Positions 14,991 to 64,000 of a stretch of DNA of 64,000 nt are shown piece after piece. The DNA is from Zeus faber (taxonomy: Eukaryota; Chordata; Actinopteri; Zeiformes; Zeidae): the NCBI GenBank assembly GCA_960531495.1, contig OY482851.1, forward strand, positions 16,456,321 to 16,520,320, in the 5' to 3' direction. The notes under the pieces were generated by a model. The model was given only the letters and a program-made list of their open reading frames with translations. It had not been told where the DNA came from and did no database searches. Both the position numbers and the translations under genes were made by a program. Each line of letters starts with the position of its first letter. Within the stretch, counting starts at the first letter, position 1.

Positions 14991-17900
14991 CTCTCTCTCT
15001 CTATCCACATCTATATGCACAGACGGAGTGGTCCCGTTTCATGGTCACCTCACAAGTTTGGTCGTTGCGTGTCGAACGTCTGATAGTCATCTTGTTTTTC
15101 CCACAGCATCGTGTTCTGGTTTGGAGATCTGAACTTCCGTATTGACGACCTCGAAATGCAAGTCGTGAAATCAGCCATTGACAATAACAAGCTGTCGGTG
15201 CTTTGGGAGAAGGACCAGGTAAAAGTCAAAAGGTTATTTTGTGCAAAAAGGATTGTCGGGTTGTTTTGCCTTTTGTGTGAGACGTTGCCCTTCCGATTGC
15301 TCTGTTGTTCCAGTGCAGCCTTGATAATAGCAGGCATGTTGGATGCGCGTTCACATACATTCTCTAAACTTGCCGTCACCTCACATAGTGATTTGATGTT
15401 GCCGTGTCAGTAAATATGGGCTCAGTGAAAACTTAACACTTCCCCCTTCTCAATCTTTAATCTGAATCTTCTCTGCTCGAACCCAGAATCGCGAGAGTGG
15501 CGCCGCCCCTTGCGGCCGCCTGCACGAGCACCCCGCGTCGATTACGCACATTTGAGTATTTTTCGTATTTTTCGAGCTTATAGAGCTTATTGTGCATAAT
15601 CACCGGGTGTCATGACATTTCACTGCATATATGTATGACCATATATGTATGTATGTGACAAATAATCTCTTGAACTTGAACTTGAACTTGAATATCAGTT
15701 GTACCGTCAGTCAGGCAATGCAGTGTGTGGCCAGTGCCACTAGAGGGCACGGTGGGCTTACAAATATTTAAAAAAATAAAACAGACAAAGTCGTCTCCTC
15801 TAAAAACGTCTTGATCTGTGCAGCTCAACATGGCCAAAGACAGTGAGACCGTCTTAGAGGGATTCCATGAGGGACCACTCAGATTCTCTCCCACATACAA
15901 GTTTGATGTTGGGACAGATACATACGACACAAGGTTTGTGGTGCACAAAAGGTTTGATTTGTCCGGCCTTTATGACAAAAACACGACTTTAAATCCAAAC
16001 GTAACGAAGTGTGACTTTAAATTTGTTGATGTTCGTGTGGCTCCTTCCTACTTTCTCCCTCGTTCTGTCCCTTCCACCCTATTTATCCTCCTCCCTTTCG
16101 CTCTCTCCAGCGGGAAAAAGCGAAAGCCTGCATGGACCGACAGGATACTGTGGCGCCTGAGGGCCACCGCTCCGGCGGGCGCGGCCCAAAATGCGGGGAA
16201 GCGTGGCTCTATGTCGGGTTTGACCAGCGGGGCCAAAGTCACGCAGCACTGCTACCGCAGCCACATGGAGTACACCGTCAGCGACCACAAGCCAGTCTCC
16301 TCCATCTTCACACTACAGGTGCAGTAGGCCAGGCGGAACATCGCGGGTTTCCCTTTGTCGTTAATGACATTGCCGCTTTGCCGCGTTAATCACCCGCTTC
16401 TCCACAGTTTCCGTACAAAGTGGATGTCCCGCTGGTGACGCTGATCGTGGACGACGAGTGGAACAGCATTGCGGACGCTCTCGTCAGGTTTAAAGTCGCC
16501 CCCAACTTCGCTCGCAGCTCCTGGGACTGGATAGGGCTCTACAAGGTAACGGAGCTTCGCCTCCTTGGACCCCCGCACCCGTAACACCCACCCTCCTTTT
16601 ACTTCACTCAAGAGATTTGTGTCCCGCGCTTCCGTAGGTAGGATTCAAACACCACAAGGATTATGTGGGGTATGTCTGGGCCAAGCAGGAGGAAGGTGAT
16701 TTCCTTCGACAAGAGCATCAGGTGATGAACAAACGTGTACGCCAAGCTTTTTTTTTTTTTTATGAACATTATATTTTACATTCACTTCATCCTTTTTTTT
16801 TTCCTAACTAACATTTTCCAGGTGACCTTTACCGAGGAGGAGTTGCCAAAGGGCTCCGGGGATTTTATTCTGGGTTACTATAGCAACAACATGAGCTCCA
16901 TCGTGGGAGTAACGGAGCCATTTCAGGTGAATAGGACACTTTTTACTTTTATCACAGAAAGAAAAAAACGATTTGGCGTTGTTCTAACAGACTTACACTC
17001 ATCCTTCACGCACATTTTAACAAAAATGACTGCAAGGTTAACATGGAGGTGAATAAGTAAAAGAGAGAAATGAGTGTTGTGTTGCATAGATTAGGAGAAT
17101 AGAACCCCTTAGAAAAGAAATGAGGTCCTTCTCGTCGGCGCAGCAGAGGGAGCTGTCCTAAAAGGAGGACAGCGGGACAGGATACAGGATAGCAGAGGAT
17201 CCAGGGTAACTCCATCATAGTCAGCCCCGAGCAGTGGGGAAGGTTACCCACGACTATAAATATGACAGAATAAGGAATTCCAGGGTACAGTATATGATGC
17301 GGTACGTATGGTGAGAGGCCGCTCAGGAAATATTCAGGAAAATAGGGCAAGACGCGGAGAGAACGACGCAGTTTAAAAGGGAAAGTGAATCGCACATGCA
17401 AAAATATTGTGGAGAGATCAGACAAATGATGTCAAGTTGTGCAAGACAGCGACCGCAGAGTAGAGGGGCAACCAAAAGAACCAAAAGCTGGAGTCGACAT
17501 CAGTGACAGTTGGTGCTGTTGTCACTTTTTTTTTTTCAACTCATCACGGGCCTCCTTCCTGTATGAATCGCCATCATTACTATATTATAATATAACTATA
17601 CCATATTACATAGGGCGGCAGTGGCGCAGATCATCCAGTAACCAGAGGGTTCCTGGTTTTGATCCCGGCTCCCCCTGGCAGCACCTCGAAGTGTGAGCAA
17701 GACGCTCAACCCTTGACTGCTCCTGAAGAGCTGGTGTGCTCCTTGCACGGTTGCCGCTGCATCGATGTATGAATGTGTGTGTGAATGGGTGAATGTGAGG
17801 CGTGTACTGTGAAGCGCTTTGAGGGGTTGTAAGACTAGGAAAGTGCTTTATAAATGCAGTCCATTTACCATTACTGACCACTCGTCTCGCACTTCCACCT

Positions 17901-38439: not shown

Positions 38440-41400
38440 ATGGAGTCTTTGAAGCGAGAAAGAGACGTTCTGGATGACGAGGAGGACGATGATGACGAAG
38501 AAGAAGGAGGCAAGTTACTATCAACTTTAACGTAGATTAGCCGCTAGCTAGCAGCGATACAAACGTGCGCTTATTGCGTGTGATTATGTTACGGCGCCCA
38601 GCGAACGATCGAAAAATGGACATTCGACTCGAGAACCATGTGATGGAACACATCCCCCAAAACAAAACCACGTGCGTTCCAAACACTGTTGCCTTTACAG
38701 TTAGCTTGTTTAAGCTAACGTGCTAATTCTTCCTCTCGCGTTTGAACAGTGGCTCGCATCATTTTAATGTTACATTAGCGCCCCCCTACGACATTACTGC
38801 ATTATTGCATGCATGCATTGCATTTATATCGTGTGTGTGTGTGTGTGTCTGTCTATCTAATCTCTCTGCTTGCTGTCACAGTGGCGGTTAAAGTTCGCAG
38901 AGGACGCGACACAGAAGACCGCCGGAGCCGTCACTGTCCCTACCTCGACACCATCAACAGGTACTGGTTTATCATGACTGTAAAGACCGTTTATAATGTT
39001 CCAGTCCCTTCCGACCTGCTGTTCCGTATTGCTGCCCCAATCGTCCGCTGTTCTGTTTGTCTCGCCCACAGGAGCGTTCTTGACTTTGATTTTGAGAAGC
39101 TGTGCTCCATCTCCCTCTCGCACATCAACGTGTACGCCTGTCTCATATGTGGCAAATACTTTCAAGGTGGGCGGAGAATCCCATTCATCAGGCGACCAAG
39201 AGACTCGGCCTGAGCCGGACCCTTTTTCATCTTCTGTTCGTGCATGTTTCTCCCTCAGGTAGAGGTCTCAAGTCCCATGCCTACACTCACAGTGTACAGT
39301 TCACCCACCACGTCTTCCTCAACCTGCATACGCTCAAGTTCTACTGCCTCCCTGACAACTACGAAATCATTGACTCCTCGCTAGAAGACATCACGGTGAG
39401 TCAGTAGGTGCTGTCGGTGATGGCCGGTGGACGTTATTGAATCAGATGTCTGCGATTTCGGGCTTCAAACTAGATTCAAAAATCAAGAGGTATATTTGTC
39501 ACATACGTTCATACATATATGCAGGGGAATGTCTTTGCAACGCACCTGGTGATTATGCACATAAATACTAAAATGGGCGCAATGAGCACGAGGCGCTCTC
39601 ACAGGCGACCGCAAGGGGTGGCAATTCTGGATTCTATAATTATAAAATAGTATTCATTGTCTGTGTTGTATATACTTTTAAATCATTCTAAAAAAACATA
39701 CCTTATGGAGATGTGAACTTGGTCTGCAACAATGTTTATGTAGGTGGTACGTTTCAAAGTAACATCCAGATGAATGCCAGGACCCAAGGTTTCCCAACAG
39801 AACATTGCATCAGCATCAGACCGCCTCTGCCGTTTTGCCTTGTGACAGTTGTATTCTCCGTTTCACCTGAACTATCTCACCCCACGCAACTATCTGAGCG
39901 GCTAGGATTTCTAACACACAGGACTAGTCTTGAGTGTAAAGTAAAGCGTTGACTTAGTCTTGTGCTGTGACTATATCTTGGCATTTCTCTGTCCGTAGTA
40001 TGTGCTGAAGCCCACCTTTACCAAGCAGCACATCTCAGGGCTGGACAAGCAGGGAAAACTGTATCGAGCCTACGACGGCACCACCTATCTTCCAGGTATC
40101 GTAGGGCTCAACAACATCAAGGCCAACGACTACGCCAATGTGGTTTTACAGGTATGCATGCCGCTTGCCCGTAGACTGACCATGAGGACTTGTGTTTCTC
40201 GGAGTGGATATTGGAACGTTTTTTTTCCCCTTAAAATTTCAGGCTTTGTCCAATGTTCCTCCTCTGCGGAACTACTTCCTGGAGGAGGAGAACTACCGGG
40301 GCATCCGCAGGCCCCCGGGAGACATCATGTTCCTCTTGGTGCAGAGGTTTGGCGAGTTGATGCGCAAACTCTGGAATCCCAGAAACTTCAAGGCCCATGT
40401 GTCTCCGCATGAGATGCTGCAAGCCGTCGTGCTGTGCAGCAAGAAGAATTTTCAGATCACCAAGCAAGGTAATGCGTCCCGTCGGATCGATTGTCTCCGA
40501 CATATATTTAGAATTGAAGAAAAATAAATAGGCCATGTAGACCTATCTGTGAATGATCTGATACTGTAACTTTTACTTACTGTAGACTAACCACCTCCCC
40601 ATATGGGGCTCACTGGTTAGCATAGTGCTGCTGCTTAATGGTAACTTTGTGTAGATAGCTAGTATACACATGTGTTATTTCTCATTTTAATTTTTTCTTT
40701 TGTGTTTTTGATGCACTGTTTTTTGCTGCTGTAATGCCTGAATTTCTCTCCAGGTATTAATAAAGTGTTTTCTTTCATCACCGCTCTCTGTCTTACAGGC
40801 GATGCCGTAGACTTTCTTTCTTGGTTCTTGAATGCTCTGCATAATGCTCTTGGGGGCACAAAGAAAAAACCTTGTAAGTATCACAGACAGGCAGGACTTC
40901 ACAGTGTAGCTTAAGACAATGGCTCCTTTGTGGGAAATTCACAAGTTTCTTCAGTCAAGTTCACAAATCTGTTGAATTTGCAATTCATGGCCTGGTCTTC
41001 GAGAAGATGATGCCAAATTAATATAAAGTTGCTTTCACACATGCACTGCAACCCTGAAATTATCTGGACATTACCCGGAGAAGCTGTATGTGAATGCTTT
41101 GTACTCCTTTCTGCTTTCCTTTATATTCCTTTCCAATCTTACGTTTATATTGTGGAACCGTCCGAATACATGGAGTGTCAACGCAGAAAAAGATCAGTCA
41201 GTAGCCTCGTGTCTGACACGGACAATCTCTGTTTTCTGCTATATGTGTGAAAGGGCAACTCCTGGACAATGACAGAAATCATTATCCGGACATTGTCTGG
41301 AGTTCATGTGTGGAAGTAGCTTAAGTTGTAATATCAGTTTAGTAACTTTGTAATATTAAAAACAATTCATTCTTTTATGAACTTCTTTTAAAGATGAGTC

Positions 41401-57911: not shown

Positions 57912-57919
57912 TATATAAG
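57912..57919 (+). promoter_or_regulatory. mpx: TATA box of the peroxidase gene
   Basis: TATATAAG, followed about 30 bases later by a purine-rich start region and a short non-coding exon ending CTGAAG|GTACAG at 57976. The splice to TTTCAG at 58451-58456 places the ATG two bases into the next exon. A TATA-driven promoter fits a tissue-restricted gene. Confidence 0.72.
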
Positions 57920-58264
57920 TGCTGCACCTGCAGGACGGGAGGAGGCACCATTTAGAAACACACCAGGAGGCTGAAGGTACAGTTTTTATTCTTTCCATTT
58001 ACACTCACATCACAGCTTTTATTCTTCTGTCGGAGAGCCGCCACAGTTGTGAGATACCTAAGTCAGAATTATGAGATGCTCAGTCAATATTTTGACTGAA
58101 CAAAATTATGCTCTTGACCTTATTATGACTTAAGAATCTCAAATTGTGTGATACTTAAGTCGTAATTATGAGAAACTGAGATGAGATAATGATGACTTAC
58201 TGTGATCCATTTTCCCAATTCATTGTATGACCAGCTCCTAATGGCAGCTCCGAATTTTTATAAT

Positions 58265-58458: not shown

Positions 58459-59575
58459 ATGCGCGCTGTGCTGTGTTTGGCTGTGGCTCTGTCGGCGTGT
58501 TGGCAGACACATGGCGGTATGTGCTTTCTACTTTCATTCCTAAATTATATTTGAATTGAATTGGATTGAAGTTCAGGGTGATTGAAAATCCACCGGAAAC
58601 TACACAAATTAGATTTCATAAAACCTTTTTATTATATCAAAAAACGATTTAAGATTTCTTAACTATTAACTGAGAACATGTCGTGTGGTCATTACTTTCC
58701 TTTATAAATAAACGAAATAATAATAACAATAATAATAAAAATAAAAATAAAAATAAATAATAATAATAATAATAATAATAATGATAATAATGATAAAGAC
58801 AATGCTAATGATAATCATAATAATAATAAATAGCACAAACAACTGAACCTATGAGACAAACTATGAAACGCTAATGAAAGCAAATTACTTTTACCATCAG
58901 ATCCGCCTTCAAGCAGATTTCGTGCCATCGAAAATGCGGTCAACAGAGCGAAGATCCAGGTGGACAGAGACTACGAATACTCCAGGGAAAAGTGCGTGAG
59001 AAAAACCTTTTCACCATATTTCATTTCAAGTAAAAAACAAAACAAATAAATAAAACCACAACACAACAGCAAACAAACTCAAATAATAACATGATTGACA
59101 GAAAACTCCCAGAAGAAAATCTTTATTTATTATGCATCGTTATGCATTTATTATGCATTTTCTCACACCAGTCTAACGATGAAGACAAATAAACTTTTTT
59201 TTTTTTTAACTGCCGATTTATTAATGTACCTTTCCCACTTGTTTCTTGTCTTATTTACTGTAGGATCTTTATTTGACTAAATATGAAACTAAATAGACTC
59301 TTACACGTTTGACCCAGGAGCCTGGACCGTGTGCGGAGGCAGGAGGCCGGGCCCGCCGATATCCTGCGGCTCCTGAAGCAGCCCTCCGGTGTCGCCCGCC
59401 TGTCGGTGCGCTCCGCGGATTACACGGTGATCGCCGTGGAGCTGCTCCGGAAGAACAACCGGCTGACCAAGCGCTCGATCAACGCGACAGGTCGTTCGCC
59501 TTTCAGTATCAACTGTCCTGAATGGGATTGAAAGTGTGAGTTTCAGTTGACAACTTGATGGTCCTTGCTGACTTA

Positions 59576-59629
<54 letters not shown>

Positions 59630-62600
59630 CGCGCGCGCGTGTGCGTCCACCAAACAGATATCATTTCCGAGGAGGATTTGAAGATCATTGCTAACTTGAC
59701 AGGCTGCTCCGCCAGGGCCCGCCCCCCTACCTGCAACACCACCCCCAACCTGAGCAGGTTTCGGACCGCCACCAGTGATTGCAACAACAGGTGAGCAGTA
59801 AACACCTGATTCTCAAACTTCTTTTCCATATCAAGGACCCTCAATTTGAAAGGCAGTAGGCCTTTTTTTTCTCTCAGATCGGTGAAGGCGTTATTGTCAG
59901 ACATTTATTCCAAAATGCCATACCTATAGTTAATTAGGGAGACACCAGTGACACTATGATCAAAACAGTCCTCACGGTACAACGTGTTGTAAATTAAATC
60001 ATATTGAAGTTTGGTTTTTCTGTGGACCCCTGGGGGGGCCCGGGACCCTACGTTGAGATCCACTGCAATATAGCAAACGAGCCAACCAATTTGAATGTAA
60101 ACCATTTAAAATTGCAATGATCGAGGAGTCACGGCTCAGTCATGTGCCTCACAAACGGTGTTAACCCAGTGATGTACGGGATCAAGCCCTGTACAGCTTG
60201 TCATTGTACTTTCTAGTTATTTCAATTGAGAATACAATGGAGAACAATACAAAACCAAACTCTTAATCACTGACAACCTTTTTTAAAAGTCAGCACAGCT
60301 GTGAGAGGGAGGGGAAGATTCTAAGTGTAAATTATTTAAACCATTCCAGGAAAAACCCACGCCTAGGGGCCTCCAACACACCCTTCACCCGCTGGTTACC
60401 TGCTGAGTATCAGGATGGGATCTCTCTACCCAAAGGCTGGGACCCTGAGCTGAAAATCAACAGATTTGTTCTCCCCTTGGTAAATAGACAAAACTCTAAT
60501 GTGAATGGCTAACATGCTATTAGTTGTGTATATCTGGCATATTTTATTCATACACAAGCGAAAAACAACAGAATATCTGCAGAAGGTTAAATAACCCATT
60601 TCAACATAACACATCGCCGAGGCAGTCATTTCCTCCGTTCCTGTCCACAGGTAAGACTCGTGTCCAACCGCATTTTGAAAACAGCCAATGACGATGTGTC
60701 GAGTGACTCGCTCTACACCCACCTTGTGACCATCTTTGGCCAATGGACGGATCACGACTTAACGTTCACCCCCCATTCCCCCGTCATCCGCTCGTTCAGC
60801 AGCGGCATCGACTGTGACGAGAGCTGTGAGAGCACAAATCCCTGTTTCCCCATAACGGTTGGTTGTTATTTCATCACAAATGAAGGATATTTACAGAATT
60901 GTATCACCCGCGCACTTTCAAAAATCAATTTTCACACGCCCTGACGGTGCCCTGCGACTGCTTTCCAGATTCCCAAAGGAGATGCCCGTTTCACGGCGTC
61001 GGGCGAACAATGCATGCCCTTCTTCCGTTCGGCGCCGGCTTGCGGCTCCGGAAACACGGGCCACCTCTTTGGGGCGAGCACCGTGCGCCAGCAGATGAAC
61101 TCCCTCACGGCGTTCATCGACGTGGGTCAGGTTTACGGTGCGGAGAGTGTGAAGGCTCGCAACCTCCGCAACCTCACCAACGACAGGGGCCTGATGAGGG
61201 TCAACACCCGGTTCAACGACAGTGGCCGTGAGCTCCTGCCTTTCTCGACAATGGCTGGGAACATGTGTGCCAACCGAGCTCGCATCACCAAAGTCAGTGG
61301 CGCCGAAGAGGTCCCCTGCTTCCTGGCCGGTGGGTAAAAATATAATATATCCAGTTTTAAACATGTTAACCTTGGTGAAGGCGTGAGATAACATGTTATG
61401 GGATTGCACATTTAACACGGGCTCTGCTCTTGTCTTTCAGGTGATGAGCGTTCCAACGAGAACATTGCCCTCACCTCCTTGCACACGTTGATGCTACGCG
61501 AACACAATCGTCTGGCGCGTGCTCTCGCCACACTCAACCCCGAATGGGACGGAGAAAGACTCTACCAAGAGGCCCGCAAGATCTTGGGTGGATGCCTCCA
61601 GGTCAGAATTAACCACTCATGCAGCGGAGATCTTTATCCGACAAAGTGTTAAAAGTGACATCTCAGTGGGCAGAGCTATTTACATGTCTCTCGTTCCTAT
61701 TTCAGGTCATCACGTATCGGGACTACTTGCTGCACATTGTCGGCCCGGATTTCATTCGCAAACAGTTGTCAAACTACCCCGGCTATGATGAAAACATCGA
61801 CCCCAGCATTTCGAATGTGTTCGCCACAGCTGCCTACCGTTTTGCCCACCTGATGGTTCAGCCCTTCATTTTCCGTCTCGATGAGATGTACAAGGAGCAT
61901 CGCCAGTTTCCCAGCCCACTGCTGCATAAAGCATTCTTCACACCATGGAGGGTGGTCTTTGAAGGTAAAGGAATTGTCATTCATCAAACTGTAGTTCTAG
62001 TTTTCATCCTAGTTCGACTGCGCTAAGGGTTTAATTCGATTTGCCCCAAACTCACAATTTTTTTGATCACAACTGACAATGTCTTGTATGCTGCGTAGGG
62101 GGTTTGGACCCGATCTTGAGGGGTCTGATGGGTCGGCAGGCGAAGCTCAACACACAGGACCAAATGATGCACGATGAGTTGAGGGAAAGGCTGTTTGAAT
62201 TCTCAAATAAGTTGGCCCTGGACCTCGGCTCTCTAAACATGCAGAGAGGCAGAGACCATGGACTCCCAGGTATGGTCTTATATTCAGATTACTCTGGGTT
62301 CTATTTATATGAAGACACAAATATCTGTAAACGTTAACATTCCTGGATTGTCCGTTACCGTTCAGGCTACAACAGCTGGCGGAAGTTCTGTGGTCTGTCG
62401 CAACCTAAAAACTTGAACCAGCTGGCTAGGGTCATGAAGAACCGCAAGATTGCTCAAAATCTGCTTGACCTCTACGGCACACCTGACAACATCGACGTGT
62501 GGCTGGGTGGAGTGGCCGAGCCCTTTGTCAAGGGCGGGAGAGTGGGGCCCGTGTTCGCCTGCCTCATTGCCACTCAGTTCCAAAACATCCGCAGCGGAGA

Positions 62601-63626
62601 CCGGTGAGCGTAAACAGCGCCGCCCGTTGGGACGTTGACGGACATTTGTTGCAAGTTGCATAGAATCCGGTATATTTGATATTCAGAAGCCAAATTAGTA
62701 CATTCACAAAGCCTCTAAATATTCCATGAAACTGTGAATTCCAGACTTTGGTTTGAAAATGAGGGAGTCTTCACGGACGAGCAGAAGGAATCCCTCAGTA
62801 AGACATCCCTTGCTCGTATTGTCTGTGACAACACCGGTATCACTGATGTCCCAGAGGCGCCCTTCTTATATCGTCCCCGAGGGTCTGGCTACACAAAATG
62901 CAGTGACATCCCTGCCTTTGACCTCAGCCCATGGAAAATGGGTGGTAAGTGGATACCCGTAACATCTTTCGGACTTATTTGATTCAAGGCAATGATGCTA
63001 ACTGATTTTTGTTAATGTAATTTTCTATAGCACAAGGTTCCCAGGGCCCACCTGGACCTCAAGGTCCGAAAGGTAAAAGTAGCGCTCTTTCTTTGTTATT
63101 CCCAATAAAAGTAGAATATGATGTGCTATGGTGTATGACACACACAAAAGGCTGCAATATTAAGTTTTTGTTGGTGTTTCACATCTTTTGTGATCCAGGA
63201 TCCAGGGGCCCGCGTGGTCGTAGAGGTCCAAGGGGTCGTCCTGGCGTGTCCCCAGCAAAAGTTGCTTTCGCTGTGCGACTGGGGAACAACTTTCCAAAGG
63301 CAGCCCAGCCCATCCTCTTCCGTGAGGTCATCTACAACGGACAGAACAGCTATAATGTCAGGACGGGGAAGTTTACCTGTCAAAAGCCCGGCGTCTATGA
63401 GTTCCACTTCAGCTGCACTATCAGCGACAGGGATGGAAACGTGGATCTGATGAAAAACGGAGAGCTGGTGTTGCACTCCTTCACCACCCGACAGAAAGGC
63501 CTGGTCACAGCCTCGGGAACCACTATCATGCAGCTCAAGAGGAGAGACCAAGTCTGGCTGATAGCAAACAATGGTGGCAATGGTATTACTGCTGACAGCT
63601 ACTTCTCAGGCCATTTTATTTTTTAG
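58459..63626 (+). CDS. mpx: Secreted myeloid-type heme peroxidase with C-terminal collagen and C1q domains
   Basis: MPO/EPO-type peroxidases use hydrogen peroxide to make microbicidal oxidants in granulocytes. Exons: 58459-58516, 58901-58991, 59318-59490, 59658-59790, 60350-60479, 60651-60857, 60969-61329, 61441-61601, 61706-61964, 62099-62269, 62366-62603, 62745-62944, 63031-63072, 63199-63626; 883 residues, every phase consistent. Signal peptide 1-19; propeptide to about 110. The heme domain (about 128-727) has QWTDHD with heme-linked Asp229, distal His230 and Ca-ligand Asp231; calcium loop TAFIDVG (311-317); catalytic Arg388 and heme-linked Glu391; proximal His486 in [24 protein letters not shown]. 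The residue matching MPO Met243 is Asn392. After KMG, exon 13 adds Gly-X-Y triplets and exon 14 adds more, about ten in all, then a full C1q domain (about 760-883: [21 protein letters not shown] end). Human MPO ends near position 727. Confidence 0.93.
58728..58800 (+). repeat. (AAT)n microsatellite
   Basis: AAT and AAAT repeats with ATG interruptions in peroxidase coding intron 1. Confidence 0.9.
59577..59640 (+). repeat. (TG)n(CG)n microsatellite
   Basis: About 25 TG units then GCGCGCGCG, directly before peroxidase exon 4; potential Z-DNA-forming purine-pyrimidine alternation. Confidence 0.92.
60012..60068 (-). repeat. hAT-like repeat end in peroxidase intron 4
   Basis: The reverse complement reads GGATCTCAACGTAGGGTCCC then 'gggcccccccaggggtcc', matching the left end of the element at 3213. 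Confidence 0.45.
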
Positions 63627-64000
63627 TTTAGTGCCACATTTTGCATTCTGACGCTGAGACATGTTAAGATAAAATAAGATATTATATTGCTAATATATTT
63701 GCGCATTACAGCAGCTGAGTGGGGAACAGTGTTGGAGCTTGTTCAAGTCATATAATAATACATACATCCATAGTTAAGCAGTGTATAAAAAAATGGTTAA
63801 AGTAATTCAACCCTTCTTCCGAAAAAGTGAGCATTCCTGAGTATTGTAAACTGTATGAAGTGATTCATTGATGCTGATGATATTTCCTCAAAATGTAGGT
63901 TAATATTTTGTTCTGTACATTTTTGTTTTTATTTTGTTTTCTTTCAAAAGTCATCTTTACATTTTCCTTGTTTTCCTTCCAACCTTTTTTAGTTGTACAT
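63627..64000 (+). other. mpx: 3' UTR of the peroxidase gene (partial)
   Basis: A/T-rich sequence with no new frame. No canonical AATAAA is seen before the window ends, so the polyadenylation site probably lies beyond. Confidence 0.5.

Follow-up and report, generated by a model that had tools for sequence, protein, structure and literature searches.

Gene structure and domain organization

We describe here a gene of the fish Zeus faber that is predicted to join a heme peroxidase, a collagen-like stretch and a C1q domain in one polypeptide chain. It was found in a 64,000-nucleotide stretch of the 803 Mb genome (C7:16456321-16520320; hereafter the window, with positions counted from its first letter), within which, together with its readable edge, the peroxidase-C1q locus at 58459-63626 was the sole match. 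The genomic plus strand carries 14 coding exons that splice into a single 883-codon frame followed by a stop; each of the 13 introns has GT-AG borders, and no stop interrupts the frame before its end.

Coding exon 1 (58459-58516) provides the start codon and, as judged by eye, a signal-peptide-like stretch, while exons 2 (58901-58991) and 3 (59318-59490) code for sequence N-terminal to the peroxidase domain, which begins in exon 4 (59658-59790) and continues through exon 5 (60350-60479). Alignment with human MPO places Gln226, Asp229, His230 and Asp231 in exon 6 (60651-60857), Ala286 (at the MPO dimer Cys position) in exon 7 (60969-61329), Arg388, Glu391 and Asn392 (the last at the MPO Met243 position) in exon 8 (61441-61601), the proximal His486 in exon 9 (61706-61964), and Asn571 with the NMQRGRDHG motif in exon 10 (62099-62269). 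The domain then runs through exon 11 (62366-62603) into exon 12 (62745-62944), where the peroxidase part ends (SPWK) at a phase-1 donor. Exon 13 (63031-63072) is 42 nucleotides long, in phase 1 at both ends and made of collagen-like Gly-X-Y sequence, and exon 14 (63199-63626) encodes an Arg-rich Gly-X-Y remainder, the whole C1q domain and the TAG stop. The joints from exon 12 to 13 and from 13 to 14 are thus in phase 1 across introns of only 86 and 126 nucleotides, which upholds the original prediction that the fusion runs through correctly phased GT-AG exons.

In Pfam, An_peroxidase covers residues 142-700 (628 bits vs. a cut-off of 25, E-value 1.4e-188, profile positions 1-529 of 530) and C1q covers residues 764-882 (96.4 bits vs. 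23.7, E-value 1.9e-27, all 127 profile positions), so that both domains are as complete as had been claimed. The collagen match between them (727-757) reaches 23.6 bits, below the Pfam cut-off of 27.2; the Gly-X-Y run counts 11 triplets, close to the ten or so first reported. A search of NCBIfam gave no useful match.

Two features of the short introns may be mentioned here. Intron 13 (63073-63198), at 126 nucleotides, is a multiple of three and stop-free, and would add 42 in-frame residues if retained; an AATAAA lies within it at 63104. Retention of intron 12 would bring a stop within 62945-62982, soon after exon 12, and yield a tail-less form. Beyond position 64000 the genomic sequence is given as N, so that the gene has no assigned downstream poly(A) site.

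Distribution of the fusion and a second copy in Zeus faber

Whether databases already held this architecture had been left as a question, and they do: among the 120 homologues listed (of 2134), 97 carry both An_peroxidase and C1q and the other 23 the peroxidase only, the fused proteins being mostly filed as "eosinophil peroxidase-like". These 120 homologues are 59-76% identical to the window protein, in most cases across nearly the full chain, which argues against a chance similarity, and the named homologues among the matches listed are fish proteins. With the tail of the Aldrovandia protein as query, 79 proteins were recovered, 74 of them with both domains, adding bonytongue, smelt, milkfish and carps; the grass carp tail recovered both domains in 72 of the 120 proteins listed (of 146), which brought in characins as well as the bowfin Amia calva (P0167), where Pfam confirmed both domains. 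The search for An_peroxidase plus C1q in other fishes that had been proposed as a check is thus positive for teleosts and bowfin; carp, sea bass, turbot and Astyanax mexicanus (P0163) are among the species that have the gene. Neither a gar, sturgeon, bichir or shark fusion nor a catfish, salmonid or zebrafish fused peroxidase stood among the matches listed in the homologue search and the two tail searches, which does not prove that these fishes lack it.

Three short contigs code for entire fusions, each with both domains by Pfam: P0025 (894 aa in 2768 nucleotides), P0149 (893 aa in 2932 nucleotides) and P0175 (868 aa in 3133 nucleotides). As 13 introns cannot fit into contigs of this size, they are very probably assembled mRNAs, and they contradict the case in which exons 13 and 14 would belong to a separate gene.

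The Zeus faber genome holds 57 C1q matches, one of which, on C17, groups with the fused tails. In the DNA upstream of this C1q exon, the peroxidase exons are matched from the first to the last, which places a second fused peroxidase-C1q gene at C17:20382400-20392300 (L028). The final three exons of L028 are arranged as in the window gene, with a peroxidase end, a 54-nucleotide collagen exon and a collagen-plus-C1q exon connected by a phase-1 joint.

History of the fusion

The peroxidase parts were compared in a FastTree phylogeny of 167 rows, rooted on the bowfin by our own choice and containing no tetrapod, gar or shark rows. P0001, which consists of two peroxidases run together, was left out, as were the peroxidase-less proteins (P0151-P0155, P0161, P0166, P0168, P0169 and P0177-P0219). 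P0150, a partial protein in which Pfam does call C1q, was treated as tail-less in the tree (24 rows, vs. 23 tail-less by Pfam), and P0176 was counted as fused, here and in the conservation counts below, despite having no Pfam C1q call.

Two clades emerged, each holding eels and their kin as well as clupeocephalans: the window gene belongs to clade A (127 rows, support 0.985), and clade B comprises 39 rows (support 0.975). Clade B has no tail-less row. The 23 in clade A fall into 13 groups requiring at least 10 changes, a parsimony count that is not firm given the weakly supported percomorph forks, and are all percomorph or holocentrid by name; three of them (P0101, P0106, P0109) are, by eye, possibly poor gene models. 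For two percomorphs, a fused and a tail-less copy of the same fish come from contigs of equal length (P0018/P0089 and P0006/P0098).

The C1q domains were placed in an IQ-TREE phylogeny with 16 sampled fused tails, 23 of the 57 genome C1q matches beside the window (loci L024, L025 and L027 being left out) and 9 outside rows. The 16 fused tails cluster with the C17 tail (99 in the Shimodaira-Hasegawa-like approximate likelihood-ratio test, SH-aLRT), apart from the 22 other genome copies and the 9 outside rows, and the C17 copy is nearest to members of clade B.

Given the bowfin rooting, the duplication into clades A and B would predate crown teleosts, and with the two Zeus faber copies on different contigs it would fit the teleost genome duplication. 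Since bowfin has the fusion, it is most likely older than the bowfin-teleost split and retained in two old paralogue groups, and a single origin of the tail is favoured from these trees. We are thus highly confident that the window holds one real gene whose fusion arose once, before bowfin and teleosts separated, and was then kept in both groups. An origin confined to teleosts was dropped once the bowfin fusion was listed; repeated gain of the tail is not favoured, as the fused C1q tails group together and the tail-less rows nest within clade A. Mechanistically, the last peroxidase exon most likely came to splice into a collagen-C1q gene, which would have added the short collagen exon and the collagen-plus-C1q exon at the C-terminus.

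Conservation of the catalytic unit and of the C1q head

The DHD (229-231), R388/E391, proximal H486 and NMQRGRDHG of the window protein align with human MPO, as the original prediction had it, and the full distal and proximal set is present (Q226, D229, H230, R388, E391, H486 and N571). Residue numbering and catalytic roles follow MPO, with the fish correspondence taken from the human MPO alignment; in MPO, Met243 forms the sulfonium heme link, Cys153 the disulfide between monomers, and Ser174 is a calcium ligand.

Across the 143 rows taken as fused, the window protein among them, the heme pocket (MPO numbering) is near-invariant, with Gln91 kept in 143, Asp94 in 141, His95 in 142, Arg239 in 141, Glu242 in 142, His336 in 141 and Asn421 in 140. 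The Met243 position is never Met (136 Asn, 4 His, 2 Gln and one gap), and the Cys153 position is never Cys (96 Ala, 33 Ser, 13 Thr and 1 Gly). With the pocket kept and both of these residues absent, the catalytic unit should be EPX/LPO-like, and on these alignments the disulfide dimer of mammalian MPO cannot form in these fish peroxidases. The name Mpx used at first is doubtful on the same grounds, and also because flounder has a separate MPO (PoMPO), a leukocyte protein of 770 aa to which passages of PMC9908613 assign a signal peptide and a peroxidase domain only. Both PoMPO and the window product are fish heme peroxidases. A further substitution is found in exon 7, where Gly317 occupies the MPO Ser174 position; Gly stands there in 130 of the 143 fused rows.

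In the C1q domain, 21 columns hold one residue in at least 95% of the fused rows, and identity to the window is 38-76% in 140 of the 142 others, the exceptions being P0171 (28%, with a partly deviant tail) and P0176 (14%). The linkers vary (0-18 triplets, or Pro/Thr-rich sequence): 93 rows have a longest Gly-X-Y run of at least 6 triplets, 23 of 3-5 and 27 of fewer than 3. With conserved columns on one side and a variable or missing run on the other, selection on the head appears stronger than on the stalk. In pipefish and seahorses (P0080-P0082, P0088, P0112) the linker is not plain collagen but has expanded into repeats rich in Pro, Thr and Gly. The window protein has 7 Arg/Lys and no acidic residue in its Gly-X-Y stretch (63031-63245), and that of turbot (P0137) is likewise Arg/Lys-rich; many relatives have 0-2 Arg/Lys there.

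Comparison with known proteins

The "eosinophil peroxidase-like" proteins of fishes such as Polymixia lowei (P0003) and Lampris incognitus (P0004) have the same architecture, differ from the window protein in sequence and linker only, and bear names that hide the C1q domain; the window gene belongs with them. With the mammalian MPO, EPX and LPO of the peroxidase-cyclooxygenase superfamily, the fish protein has in common the whole peroxidase domain and its catalytic residues, and human MPO structures are matched by a structure model of P0003 with 49-52% identity. The fish peroxidase part can be aligned with human MPO over its full length, up to residue 742 of 745, and MPO stops about where fish exon 12 stops, whereas the fish protein continues into collagen-like sequence and C1q and has neither Met243 nor the dimer Cys. 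The earlier statement that the mammalian enzymes end at the peroxidase domain is thereby confirmed for human MPO; EPX and LPO end there too. At the other end, the window protein resembles the C1q/TNF family (collagen VIII/X, adiponectin, C1q) in placing a Gly-X-Y stretch, here below the Pfam Collagen cut-off, ahead of its C1q head, but no member of that family is known to carry an enzyme domain in front.

A full-text literature search, mostly outside subscription journals and judged by titles and the openings of abstracts among the papers listed, found no description of the peroxidase-collagen-C1q architecture, present as it is in sequence databases. The two papers containing both "An_peroxidase" and "C1q", on the planarian matrisome and on mussel shell, mention them apart, not as one protein, and passages of PMC6453901, PMC6641155, PMC6754371, PMC9908613 and PMC9945314 leave the fusion undescribed. 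A turbot study reports an "EPX-Like" gene with higher kidney expression after vaccination (PMC9945314). Its two quantitative PCR primers translate to words at positions 820 and 879 of the 915-aa P0137, that is, within the C1q domain (794-912), and "C1q" is absent from the main text of the paper. With the primers so placed, that study seems to have measured C1q-exon RNA as peroxidase, unremarked.

Proposed product and alternative explanations

In fish immunology, the peroxidases of granulocytes serve as standard markers and effectors. Our favoured reading of the window gene, to which we give a probability of about 0.65, is an EPX/LPO-type peroxidase, probably secreted or granule-stored, that is trimerised by its C1q head. 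Among solved structures, the tail best matches adiponectin, C1q and collagens X and VIII, and in the P0003 model (a single chain) the C1q portion fits the heads of collagen X, collagen VIII and adiponectin at 1.8-2.9 Å; C1QTNF5 is also among the solved heads matched, and several of these structures are trimers by entry title. A trimeric peroxidase is thus the simplest reading, and trimerisation would be a fair extrapolation from the C1q family: the head probably assembles three catalytic units, replacing the MPO disulfide dimer, into an enzyme that would be multivalent both in catalysis and in ligand binding, with the collagen stretch serving as a spacer only. That the head also binds a ligand, be it matrix, a polyanion or a microbial surface, and thereby positions the source of oxidants is a tentative addition, for which we would not claim even odds. 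It is tempting to go further and see an innate immune effector of bowfin and teleosts that unites recognition and killing in one molecule, a trimeric head on a microbial or damaged surface carrying three peroxidases that release oxidants at the target, even outside the phagosome, but this we hold to be rather unlikely. Targeting to microbes, apoptotic cells or pentraxins, as first suggested, is unproven.

Several observations weigh against this picture. The Zeus faber gene model was read from genomic DNA alone, the short contigs are labelled "lgn" without a source type, and the linker is garbled in the gene model from bowfin. The 27 fused rows without a collagen run of three triplets, a few of them possibly gene-model faults, include clade A copies from flatfishes, sea breams and puffers. 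Tail-less paralogues occur in percomorph fishes (23 tree rows, at least 10 changes), so that the tail is dispensable in some copies. Finally, the P0003 model is weak overall (mean predicted local distance difference test score, pLDDT, of 61), its C1q part being better.

Three features would suit a prediction that had merged two neighbours, a tail-less peroxidase and a separate C1q-like gene: tail-less paralogues in other fish end at the exon-12 joint (SPWKEN), exon 13 has just 42 nucleotides, and intron 13 contains an AATAAA. We nevertheless consider such a merger very improbable and reject it, because the three contigs without room for introns code for the whole fusion, the same genome holds a second fused copy, and the joint is identical from bowfin to percomorphs; exons 12-14 are moreover in phase over two short introns that would leave little space for a promoter. 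From the listed homologues with both domains, the contigs, the second copy and the bowfin fusion, we read the locus as one gene, not two run together.

Granting a single gene, the tail could be a maturation or sorting device that trimerises the precursor and is removed from the mature enzyme. MPO-family proteins do undergo processing, and a linker so variable and flexible-looking would suit a protease; yet no common cleavage motif could be seen in it by eye and the C1q head itself is conserved, which makes this option improbable. The head may instead anchor the enzyme to matrix or polyanions, as collagen VIII/X or EMILIN heads may do, with no part in immune recognition. Its closest structural matches, which include collagens X and VIII and adiponectin, and the Arg-rich stretch of the window and turbot proteins lean that way; C1q chains are among the matches too, however, and the basic stretch is not general, and we regard an anchor of this kind as a minor candidate beside the C1q-headed trimeric peroxidase.

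If true, a C1q-headed peroxidase kept in bowfin and across a teleost range running from bonytongues and eels up to percomorphs would alter the sizing, purification and supposed aiming of such enzymes. It would also make it possible to ask directly whether oxidant production can be positioned by a recognition head, with the tail-less paralogues in some of the same fishes as natural controls.

Other features of the window

Upstream of the coding exons, a TATA-like box (TATATAAG, 57912-57919) and a possible non-coding first exon ending at 57976 may be read from the plus strand. Elsewhere in the window, exons at 15815-16327 and 38779-40412 look by eye like an INPP5-type inositol phosphatase and USP39, respectively.

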